Shown here: positions 7,825 to 28,467 of the stretch, piece after piece
How positions within the stretch are numbered: the stretch's first letter is position 1
Layout of the letters: every line of letters starts with the position of its first letter
NCBI GenBank assembly: GCA_031289615.1
Contig: JAITPD010000023.1
Location: 1 to 39,509 of the forward strand
DNA: 39,509 bases
Origin: Lactobacillaceae bacterium
GTDB lineage: Bacteria; Bacillota; Bacilli; Lactobacillales; Lactobacillaceae
Direction of reading: 5' to 3'
Notes under the pieces: generated by a model
What the model was told of the DNA's origin: nothing
Databases searched by the model: none
What the model saw: the letters and a program-made list of their open reading frames with translations, nothing else
Made by a program: the position numbers and the translations under genes

Positions 7825-8325
7825 ATGCATCTTTTACACTTTTTATTTTGGCTGATTTTGCTCGGAGCAATTATTGCGCTGGGCGTACGCATTAATCGAA
7901 TGGTTGGTCGGCGAGAAACTGAGCGCAACATTATTAAATCGCAACAAGTGGTGAATGCTTCAGTGAACGAAGTGATTCGTGATATGGCACAGGAATTAAA
8001 TCTAGAAATCCCACAACGGGTTACGTCAACACTGGTCGCCAATATTTGGGGCTACAATGTGATGGCATATGAATTTAAGTTTAATTACGAAGTTGCACAG
8101 GCAATCGTGCCAATGAGACAAAAGATTAATACTGGGTTAGGTCGCTATACGTTGGCGCATGAAATTATTAGTGTTGATGAAGCAGTCCAGCCGATTATCG
8201 TGACGGATCTGTGGTATGACCAGCTTAAACCGGTTTTGCATATGGATGTTGCGTACGTTTCGACCGAACAAACGGCAGCGTACTTGCGTGATTTAAAGAA
8301 ATTAAACCAACCATTTCAAACCTGA
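7825..8325 (+). CDS. Small membrane-anchored protein of unknown function
   Basis: This 166-residue protein is not recognised. It has one N-terminal hydrophobic helix (about residues 3-20), then a basic stretch (RINRMVGRRETER) and a soluble domain with a regular alpha/beta pattern, ending in TAAYLRDLKKLNQPFQ. There are no cysteines or evident catalytic motifs. The ribosome binding site AAAGAGG precedes the ATG. It is divergent from the carboxypeptidase gene and ends 20 bp before the promoter-like start of the large structured RNA region. The small signal-anchor layout suggests a membrane or envelope role, which is inference. Confidence 0.75.
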   Translation: MHLLHFLFWLILLGAIIALGVRINRMVGRRETERNIIKSQQVVNASVNEVIRDMAQELNLEIPQRVTSTLVANIWGYNVMAYEFKFNYEVAQAIVPMRQKINTGLGRYTLAHEIISVDEAVQPIIVTDLWYDQLKPVLHMDVAYVSTEQTAAYLRDLKKLNQPFQT

Positions 8326-8333
8326 TTTTGCGG

Positions 8334-8347
8334 TATACTATTATAAA
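8334..8347 (+). promoter_or_regulatory. -10 region for the structured RNA / def transcript
   Basis: TATACT at 8334-8339 is followed by a second AT-rich hexamer TATAAA at 8342-8347. A closely similar GGTATACTTTTATAA string precedes yidC at 21122-21136. The -35 is not clear. If used, the transcript starts just before the first helix of the structured region. Confidence 0.4.
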
Positions 8348-8890
8348 GTAATGTGTGGTGCTAGCTGTGCAACACTTTGGTCATTTTTCACTTGCGTGGT
8401 GGCTTTTCAATAATGATAGTAAGTGGCGACACGGTCCCATTCGACTTTTAATTTCGACGAGCCGAAATTTAGTCAAATTGGTGCCGCTACCACGCTTTAA
8501 GGAGTGTGCACAAAGGCGTCCTGAGCTGTCGGGATAAGATTATTTTCCAATTTGCTACCAAAGCGTAGCGACGTAGTGATTTGGAAAAGAAGCTTATAAC
8601 CGAAGCTCAGCCTTTGTAAACATGATGATCACCTACTATCAGCATCTCAATCCACCACGCTTTTACTAAAATGACAAGGTGTTACGCACTTTGCTTGATC
8701 AGCGAAGCGATTCTGTCGTCGGATGAGCAGCCCTTGCCAAATCTAGGCGAACCTTTTCACGCGCGCTTTAGTGCCGTGAAATTGGCAAATTATTTTGCCA
8801 TTCGCCATGAATCGTGCAGGGCCATCCGAACGTAAAGAATCTTTAGCGAAGCTGATCAAACAACGGGCAATATTTCAAAGCTAGCACAAT
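8345..8890 (+). ncRNA. Candidate large structured RNA (about 540 nt) upstream of def
   Basis: No convincing protein is encoded, yet nearly the whole stretch pairs. A closing helix GTGCTAGCT 8358-8366 pairs with 8879-8887. The 5' domain pairs 8371-8378/8676-8683, 8380-8387/8668-8675, 8394-8402/8652-8660 and 8414-8421/8634-8641. Inside it lie 8423-8432/8481-8490, hairpin 8443-8456/8463-8474, and a long stem 8510-8517/8610-8617, 8523-8527/8604-8608, 8534-8538/8593-8597, 8543-8550/8581-8588. The 3' domain pairs 8695-8703/8851-8859, 8720-8725/8823-8828, 8734-8740/8782-8788 and 8755-8761/8775-8781, with 8746-8751/8801-8806 crossing as a pseudoknot. RNase P RNA, tmRNA and T-box signatures are absent. 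Size and ornateness recall ROOL or GOLLD RNAs, but identity was not testable. No terminator separates it from def. Confidence 0.75.
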
Positions 8891-8925
8891 GCGTTAAGTA
8901 AACTAAATCAATGGAGATAATGAAC

Positions 8926-26296: not shown

Positions 26297-27244
26297 TTAC
26301 TGAATTACGTTTAGCTTTCCACGGAAGTCAGCCAGAGTTTGGTAACCCTTTGCATTCATGATTTCTGCTAATTCTTTTTCTAAACGGGCAAAAATTTCTA
26401 CGCCTTCGATTGATAGAGCTGAACCAACTTCGACCAGGTCTGCACCACACAAAATGTGTTCATAGACATCACGGCCACTAGTTACGCCACCAGTTCCAAT
26501 AATTTGAATTGAAGGGTTGAGACGTTCACGGAGAGCGCGCACGTTGGCAAGAGCAGTGGCCTTAACCAAAGTTCCGCCAAGTCCACCAAAGCCACCTTTA
26601 GGCTTAATTACAACAGTATCAGTATTTTCGTCAATCACTAACCCATTTCCAATTGAATTAATTGTGTTGACAAAGGTTAATGGATATTGGTTTAAAATTT
26701 CTGCAATCTCGTCGAAGTGGGCCATGTCGAAATAGGGTGGTAGTTTCACTCCTAAAGGCTTTGTGAAGAACGAGAACACTTCTGCTAATAGTGCATCAGT
26801 TCCTGCAAAATCATAGGCCGTTTGGGGCTTACCGGGAACGTTTGGGCAAGAAAGGTTTAATTCAACCAGTCCAGTAAACTCTGAATCCTGAAGTTGATGA
26901 AGCATATCTAAGTTATCTTGCTTGGTCACACCAGCGATTGAGAAGAAGATTGGCTTGTCAGTCACATTTTGTTGGTCTAGAACATAGTCCAGATAATATT
27001 GAAAACCGTAATTTGGCAAACCTGATGAATTAATCGTGCCAAGGTCATCTTTTAAAACAGAGTAGCGGGGCAAAGGATTTCCTTCACGAGATGCTGGTGT
27101 CGCTGATTTCGTCACAACAGATCCAGTATATTCATTTGATAGAACGGCATTAATTTCATCAATACTTTGACACATGACTCCTGATGCATTCAGAAGTGCT
27201 TTATTGAAAGTAAATGAACCGAAATTGACAGAAAAGTTAGGCAT
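26297..27244 (-). CDS. pyrD: Dihydroorotate dehydrogenase, class 1A (fumarate-dependent)
   Basis: This 315-residue cytoplasmic flavoenzyme of pyrimidine synthesis has a class 1 active-site cysteine at Cys133 in NLSCPNVPGKPQTAYD. IGTGGVTSGRDVYEHILCGAD is the FMN phosphate-binding region. Length and sequence match the class 1A enzymes of lactic acid bacteria, which use fumarate and need no PyrK partner; indeed no pyrK is adjacent. It stands alone, apart from other pyr genes. Confidence 0.93.
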   Translation of the reverse strand: MPNFSVNFGSFTFNKALLNASGVMCQSIDEINAVLSNEYTGSVVTKSATPASREGNPLPRYSVLKDDLGTINSSGLPNYGFQYYLDYVLDQQNVTDKPIFFSIAGVTKQDNLDMLHQLQDSEFTGLVELNLSCPNVPGKPQTAYDFAGTDALLAEVFSFFTKPLGVKLPPYFDMAHFDEIAEILNQYPLTFVNTINSIGNGLVIDENTDTVVIKPKGGFGGLGGTLVKATALANVRALRERLNPSIQIIGTGGVTSGRDVYEHILCGADLVEVGSALSIEGVEIFARLEKELAEIMNAKGYQTLADFRGKLNVIQ

Positions 27245-27372
27245 GAGATTGATGTCCTTCTTGATAGATTTTGACTATCGTACCAAATGAAACGGCGGTA
27301 AGTCAACTACCTTTTTGTAAGGGAATTACGGGTAATTTAAGAAGATAAATATTCCTAGGCATAAATTTTAGG

Positions 27373-27378
27373 TATAAT
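27373..27378 (+). promoter_or_regulatory. TATAAT -10 element of the ABC exporter leader
   Basis: A perfect TATAAT places transcription start near 27385, immediately before the 80-nt segment shared with the large RNA. The -35 is weak. Confidence 0.55.
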
Positions 27379-27387
27379 TAAGGATAG

Positions 27388-27561
27388 TAAAAGCCGAATG
27401 GGACCGTGTCGCCACTTGCTATCATTATCGAAAGAACACCACGCAAGTGAAAAATGATCACAGTGTTTAGTAACAAACACTGTGATGTATTATTCAAGGA
27501 TAGAAAAATCCCCCTTATTCAAACGCAATATGGGGTACTCACAAACAGAGGAGTTCTGCTG
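27388..27561 (+). promoter_or_regulatory. Structured 5' leader of the ABC-2 exporter, with 80-nt inverted copy of the large RNA
   Basis: Bases 27388-27467 equal the reverse complement of 8371-8450 with about 8 mismatches in 80. The match begins at the presumed transcript start. Directly after it, ATCACAGTGTTT (27457-27468) pairs perfectly with 27475-27486 in a 12-bp hairpin with a 6-nt loop and no U-tract. An upstream stem GATAGTAA/TTGCTATC (around 27383-27425) is also possible. The ribosome binding site AGAGGAG is about 8 nt before the ATPase ATG at 27562. The rest of the stretch from 27245 holds only promoter-like AT-rich sequence. Confidence 0.7.
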
Positions 27562-28467
27562 ATGATTGAATTAAAGAATGTGACAAAACGATTTTCAGAT
27601 AAAATAGCTGTGCATGATTTGAATCTTACATTAGAACCAGGGCAGGTGATGGGATTAATCGGTCAAAACGGAGCAGGAAAAACAACGACCTTTCGCATGA
27701 TCCTAGATTTTATTGAGCCAACTGAGGGAACCATTACGTGGGACGGTCATCAAATTGGTCCACATGATAAGCAAAAGATTGGTTTTTTACCTGAAGAACG
27801 TGGCTTGTACCAGAAGTGGACAGTTGAAGAGCAAGTGTTATATTTTGCTGAACTTCATGGAATGAAACGTGCAGATGCTAGAACCGAGTTACAACGTTGG
27901 ATGAAGAGTCTTGATGTTGTCGGTAAGATGACGGATAAGGTGCAAAAGCTGTCAAAGGGAAACGCGCAAAAGATTCAACTGATTGCGACAACCATTTTTC
28001 AACCGGAATTTATGATTTTGGATGAACCATTTACCGGGATGGATCCGGTTAACACTGAACTAATGATGAATGAGATCAATCGACTAAAGAAGCAGGGCTC
28101 GATGATTGTTTTTAGTTCGCACAATATGGCTGGAGTTGAAAAGCTCTCTGATTCTCTGACGATGTTACGGCACGGTGAAGCCATTTTGCAAGGGAATACT
28201 GCACAAATTCGTGAATCATTTGGCCGGACTGAAATTTATCTAGAATCACCAATTTCAGATGCTGAATTATTAGCAATTCCTGGCGTTGAAACGATTCGGC
28301 AAGAGGGCATGGGACGCGAAATTCATTTGACAGATCCAGCTGCAGGCCAGTCAGTCTTTACGCTCGTTAGTTCAAGTGGATATGTACCAGTTTTTGCCCA
28401 ACAATCACCAACCTTGGACGAAATTTTCCGGCGTGAAGTTGCACAAGGAGGATTGACAAATGTTTAG
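27562..28467 (+). CDS. ABC transporter ATP-binding protein (NatA/YhaQ-like)
   Basis: This 301-residue ATPase has Walker A GQNGAGKT at 34-41, a signature motif LSKGNAQKIQ and Walker B FMILDEPFTGMD. It belongs to the ABC-2 exporter class; the C-terminal extension (residues about 215-301) is typical of NatA/YhaQ-type proteins. Start 27562 is supported by AGAGGAG; the frame is open upstream to 27454 but that part is leader. The permease gene overlaps its end by 8 bp. The substrate is unknown. Confidence 0.9.
   Translation: MIELKNVTKRFSDKIAVHDLNLTLEPGQVMGLIGQNGAGKTTTFRMILDFIEPTEGTITWDGHQIGPHDKQKIGFLPEERGLYQKWTVEEQVLYFAELHGMKRADARTELQRWMKSLDVVGKMTDKVQKLSKGNAQKIQLIATTIFQPEFMILDEPFTGMDPVNTELMMNEINRLKKQGSMIVFSSHNMAGVEKLSDSLTMLRHGEAILQGNTAQIRESFGRTEIYLESPISDAELLAIPGVETIRQEGMGREIHLTDPAAGQSVFTLVSSSGYVPVFAQQSPTLDEIFRREVAQGGLTNV

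Follow-up and report, generated by a model that had tools for sequence, protein, structure and literature searches.

A probable remnant of a MITE-like, modular structured repeat in the leader of an ABC exporter gene from a Lactobacillaceae bacterium

The window, meaning the whole stretch of 39,509 nucleotides analysed here from a contig of a Lactobacillaceae bacterium, contains two regions that are related to each other (Table 1). One, initially annotated as a large RNA, lies between an open reading frame of 166 aa and pdf, while the other is a short fragment in the leader of an ABC exporter ATP-binding gene, divergent to which lies pyrD (26297-27244). The initial annotation described the fragment as a reverse-complement copy of the 5′ domain of the large RNA, and this description holds: aligning 27388-27467 with the reverse complement of 8371-8450 gives 72 identities in 80 bases, and blastn within the window returns the same sharp limits (E 3e-26). 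The accompanying observation that 27418-27467 resembles 8634-8683 is accounted for by the fold of the larger region, since 8371-8425 forms one arm of a stem and about 8630-8679 the other. The fragment ends abruptly inside the inner hairpin of domain A, and no second end or target duplication was recognised for it.

Table 1 Features of the long copy, its flanks and the exporter leader in the window
Feature	Position	Strand	Basis
Left target-site duplication, TAAAGTAA	8344..8351		7/8 bases equal to 8894-8901 (TTAAGTAA)
Element 5′ end with terminal inverted repeat	8352..8372	+	GYRTDGTGCTAGTTRTG at 8353-8369, 1 mismatch
Structured domain A, long stem enclosing inner hairpins	8372..8679	+	folding, alignment
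Optional subdomain X within domain A, missing from short copies	8500..8625	+	profile match 8500-8625; copy architectures
Structured domain B, long imperfect hairpin	8693..8861	+	covariance model R1, 200.1 bits; covariation
Element 3′ end with terminal inverted repeat	8873..8893	-	GYRTDGTGCTAGTTRTG at 8876-8892, minus strand, 2 mismatches
Right target-site duplication, TTAAGTAA	8894..8901		8-bp signature over 31 elements
Truncated inverted copy, 5′ part of domain A, in exporter leader	27388..27467	-	72/80 bases; profile match 27379-27493, E 3e-25
Perfect 12-bp hairpin at the fragment's decayed end	27457..27486		terminator-like on both strands
ABC exporter ATP-binding gene, downstream of the fragment	27562..28467	+	Pfam ABC_tran + DrrA1-3_C

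The exporter ATP-binding gene was found in 25 of the 27 other genomes of the genus, and the repeat fragment at none of these 25 exporter loci. The leader hairpin gives two predicted terminator-like sites, compared with 0.2 in shuffled sequences. The exporter reading frame stays open upstream through 27454-27561, reaching an ATG (27454) that lies within the repeat fragment. Matches in the 25 relatives begin with the first or second residue of the 301-aa protein encoded from 27562, so this longer start is probably unused. A permease gene is present at all 25 exporter loci of the relatives and pyrD adjoins none of them, and the exporter neighbourhood has therefore been rearranged on the pyrD side.

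Searches of the host's own genome (2.01 Mb in 65 contigs) revealed that the two regions are two members, in opposite orientation, of a genome-wide repeat family. With 8330-8910 as query, the best 40 of 244 candidates yielded 63 matching pieces, and at least 22 places besides the window copy match over at least 424 bases at 74–92% identity. The 96-base query 27380-27475, which covers the leader fragment, matched in all of the best 40 of 144 candidates (83–100% identity); among these matches, itself aside, two copies on contig C21 outscore the partner within the window, and copies on C59 and C17 score equal to it. A covariance model of domain B (R1) matched at full length in all of the best 101 of 1211 candidates, so that at least 101 copies of this domain are present. 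The leader fragment is thus an inverted, broken copy of a repeat with more than 100 copies, and for this reason its match to the large RNA is no evidence of control. In 20 stretches of 20 kb (score cut 30, neighbours merged), the repeat occupies 45 places, or 3.5% of 400 kb. These stretches were taken from large contigs, several with copies already known, rather than as a random sample, and about 200 copies genome-wide is therefore a rough guess only. In seven loci (L004, L010, L018, L019, L020, L021, and L027) the contig ends within a copy or no more than about 115 bases from one; the repeat probably causes many of the 65 contig breaks in the assembly, and copies are likely undercounted as a result.

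Like a MITE, the repeat is dispersed in many copies that are mostly intergenic. Only 4 of the 45 places overlap open reading frames by more than half, although just 13.7% of the stretches lies outside called reading frames. Of the 36 places that were classified, 13 lie between tandem genes in sense and 15 in antisense orientation, five between convergent genes, and three between divergent genes, revealing no orientation bias relative to flanking genes; 5 of the 45 lack a called gene on one side.

The family appears to be almost confined to its host. BLAST searches found the repeat in none of 59 relatives, the host alone matching among 60 genomes, and the R1 model likewise matched in none of the 27 other genomes of the genus and only in the host's among all 28. 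Searches of the family and phylum (best seven candidates per genome, stricter filters) recovered R1 in none of 396 other genomes of the 397 in the family, and in 2 of 398 genomes of the phylum, namely the host's and one with a 51-nt match (E 0.0074) taken to be due to chance. An exact-pattern scan of a collection of genome contigs, from which the host's own genome may be missing, gave two matches in unrelated metagenome bins, which were also taken as chance. A phage or plasmid origin was considered and rejected: a distant search returned no phage or plasmid match, and exact core patterns are missing from viral contigs. The host species itself stands apart in its genus, as the best matches of two proteins examined share just 74–78% of residues. 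Its genome is probably Weissella-like, the closest pointer being an ABC ATPase with 59% identity on a Weissella confusa plasmid. The accessible part of the literature on Weissella or Leuconostoc names no such repeat, and a report under the host's own name could be missed there.

The boundaries of the repeat are those of a mobile DNA element. The end pattern GYRTDGTGCTAGTTRTG has 118 matches in the genome at up to two mismatches compared with 11 for a reversed control, and terminal inverted repeats, a MITE trait, are present at both ends of 31 elements. When up to one mismatch is allowed, the pattern occurs 6 times in total in the 27 other genomes of the genus vs 23 times for its reversed form, which is background. 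For the 31 elements whose boundaries are unique, the two flanks agree at rates of 0.45–0.61 at positions 2–9 and of 0.10–0.35 outside, delimiting a target-site duplication of 8 bp. In nine of these elements 7 or 8 of the 8 flanking bases match, whereas 5000 rounds of permutation averaged 0.72 such elements and never exceeded 5; in the other 22, two thirds of the total, a clear duplication is gone. Consistent with MITEs, the elements are short and carry no transposase gene: the 31 span 170–673 bp, and the longest ATG reading frame in the 542-bp window copy encodes 54 aa. One locus (L117) contains a 36-bp element made of the ends alone, between CTATCTAA and TTATCTAA.

An empty site corresponding to the window copy is found in the relatives. 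The 166-aa reading frame and pdf are separated by 589 nt in the window and by an estimated 27–125 nt (median 33) in all 27 other genomes of the genus, a difference that fits the 542-bp element together with its duplication. Profile searches detected the element at none of the 27 pdf loci, and the blastn matches at five of them (14–20 nt, E 0.1–0.8) are chance-like. No transposase lies between such ends among the facing pairs of the 100 end matches listed out of 118, and the host assembly, a draft broken at repeats, contains no IS1595 or ISL3 transposase. One facing pair of ends, 1.7 kb apart on C24, encloses two remnants and one long reading frame, which we take to resemble an LCP-type cell-wall gene.

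An alignment of 22 long copies, combined with a profile search of the 20 stretches, resolved the repeat into modules A, X, and B. Copies are organised as A-X-B, A-B, A only, B only, or shortened forms, and each module is absent from some copies. The region 8350-8900 folds far better than shuffled sequences (z −10.5). No Rfam family reaches its gathering score in the window, and membership in a known Rfam family was rejected, as the three matches to 8300-8920 obtained at E values up to 10 fall far under the cut-offs.

The fold of domain B is supported by covariation. Among 52 copies, 97.8% of cells are paired in a 47-pair fold, compared with 28–42% in slid versions of it, and 14 pairs changed on both sides, giving 91 such cells where shuffles give 22.3 (none of 500 reached 91). 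Placed on a tree, 13 of the 47 pairs account for 28 double compensatory events. Internal loops remain unpaired, and several loop columns are 98–100% conserved over the 52 copies. For domain A the covariation evidence is weaker, because in 18 copies only five pairs of its 49-pair fold show double changes and the covariation term is close to zero (+0.49 kcal/mol); this alignment excludes two wrongly cut rows of 20, while of 26 cut short sequences six were unaligned and 24 further matches lacked a usable cut.

The cores also differ from the remainder of the element in their conservation. Between long copies, identity is 81–91% in the cores, 39–41% in the ends, 41% in the A-B linker, and 29% in the flanks (22 rows minus L030, with seven more rows left out for 3′ regions), although the ends may align less well than the cores and possibly add to this contrast. 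Arms of the basal stem from one and the same copy pair better than arms combined from different copies, in A as in B (0 of 500 permutations for either stem), whereas the outer stem of the ends shows no such advantage (399 of 500), and neither do the flanks (442 of 500); this test used 36 rows minus L006, L014, and L030, which were wrongly anchored. Changes to G-U outnumber changes to A-C in domain B (36 vs 17, p 0.013), while domain A tends in the opposite direction (10 vs 16, p 0.33; pooled p 0.18).

Together these results indicate that the leader fragment is very probably what remains, truncated and inverted, of a MITE-like mobile element that is non-autonomous and has more than 100 copies, 8352-8893 being a long one. 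The element has inverted-repeat ends, duplicates an 8-bp A+T-rich target, and contains at most three structured modules (A, B, and the optional X). It would have been moved as DNA by a transposase acting in trans, and may be transcribed through read-through from neighbouring promoters. If the remnant affects the exporter, it would likely do so locally and in cis, through the leader hairpin, rather than by pairing with 8371-8450. Several observations count against the MITE-like assignment: no transposase with these ends occurs among the matches examined, the cores are better conserved than the ends, a pattern left unexplained by simple decay after insertion, a clear duplication is missing in 22 of 31 elements, and neither a second end nor a target duplication was recognised for the leader fragment. 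In addition, A+T-richness is listed among the characteristics of MITEs in one report (PMC3049150), and the window copy, at 45.2% G+C vs 40.4% for the window, is not A+T-rich. We therefore use the name MITE-like, given this composition and a partner element that was not found.

The initial annotation offered two explanations for the match, a mobile or duplicated module and regulation of the exporter in trans by the large RNA. The former is supported here, the module being a DNA element bounded by inverted repeats and flanked by target duplications. Under the latter, RNA from 8352-8893 would base-pair with the exporter leader, as suggested by the complementarity at 72 of 80 bases and by a predicted duplex between the window copy and the fragment of −123.0 kcal/mol, or −124.1 kcal/mol with arms up to 100 nt. 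However, among 89 arm sequences, duplicated loci included, copies at L045, L033, and L034 give stronger predicted duplexes with the fragment and that at L006 an equal one, and the pairing thus lacks the specificity for two loci by which an antisense RNA is recognised. Since other copies pair equally or better and orientations are balanced, the complementarity carries no specific information. In addition, the element occurs at none of the 25 exporter and none of the 27 pdf loci of relatives, and a consensus scan of the leader side (27240-27600) placed all three of its promoter-like sites on the minus strand, against a mean of 1.3 sites in shuffled sequences, rather than recovering the plus-strand site that had been proposed. 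Regulation in trans is therefore unsupported, and we regard it as highly improbable.

The strong folding and conserved loops might instead reflect spread via an RNA or single-stranded DNA intermediate rather than a DDE-type transposase, but the 8-bp duplications, together with the sharing of the same inverted ends by several architectures and one core-less element, make this route very unlikely. A different question is how the cores came to be conserved. Transposition may merely have spread functional RNAs whose structures were then kept by selection in many copies after insertion, as the identity contrast, the double compensatory events, the within-copy pairing of the basal stems, and the excess of changes to G-U in B would suggest. 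Against this stand the reversed strand test and the near-zero covariation term of domain A, the lack of orientation bias, and the many copies that are truncated or without a module; moreover, gene conversion or change in a source copy before spread could yield the same contrast, to which less well aligned ends perhaps contribute. We consider such selection improbable. The same low probability is given to the fuller form of this idea, a transposable structured RNA with two independently folding domains and conserved loops, selected in much of its more than 100 copies after the ends decayed, and forming a dispersed RNA family in one species with a common putative binding partner. Unlikely too, though somewhat less so, is that the compensatory changes arose without selection, either through templated correction between the arms of quasi-palindromes or because they were fixed for transposition in source copies. 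This reading is favoured by the long-hairpin form of both domains and by the presence of copies in both orientations; yet arm correction should erase internal-loop mismatches, and the loops have stayed unpaired with several columns nearly invariant. If the contrast between cores and ends holds in strain comparisons, it would provide a direct test of selection on RNA structures in MITE-like elements after insertion.

As a MITE-like element, the repeat is best filed as a new family of modular structured repeats, akin by description to pneumococcal BOX. In the BOX report (PMC3049150), 125 elements of 67–637 bp with inverted ends and duplications are described from one pneumococcal genome; BOX is less dense in S. 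mitis, has relatives in S. suis, and is nearly absent from other streptococci. Like BOX of Streptococcus pneumoniae, the repeat has about 100 copies or more, optional modules, a wide size range, inverted ends, target duplications, and a predicted stem-loop RNA, and is almost confined to one species group; unlike BOX, as far as descriptions can be compared, its modules are two large separate hairpin domains rather than tandem boxB units. Work on Coxiella burnetii (PMC10969869, PMC5896051) gives sizes of 39–400 bp for QMITE1 and repeats of 7–9 bp for QMITE2. The present repeat resembles these elements in its many internally shortened copies, inverted ends, and stable predicted folds, but its cores are better conserved than its ends, the reverse of shortened QMITE1. 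The CIR repeats of Caulobacter and Brucella likewise comprise two separate stem-loop arms with a linker between them, but the table of the review gives them no terminal inverted repeat, unlike the element described here (PMC2229807; compared by description). A tempting regulatory story thereby gives way to a repeat family accounting for 3.5% of the 400 kb examined.

Variation among individual copies extends beyond the three modules. At L077:12730-13460 (C27), two copies in opposite orientation abut with overlapping profile matches, one perhaps inserted in or beside the other. In the domain B loop region, seven copies (L004, L016, L017, L018, L020, L024, and L087:10882-11168) carry an inserted module, about 100 nt long and with inverted repeats of its own, and subdomain X of L009 and L024 contains an additional inserted hairpin of 43 nt. 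Modules therefore seem to have been added as well as lost.
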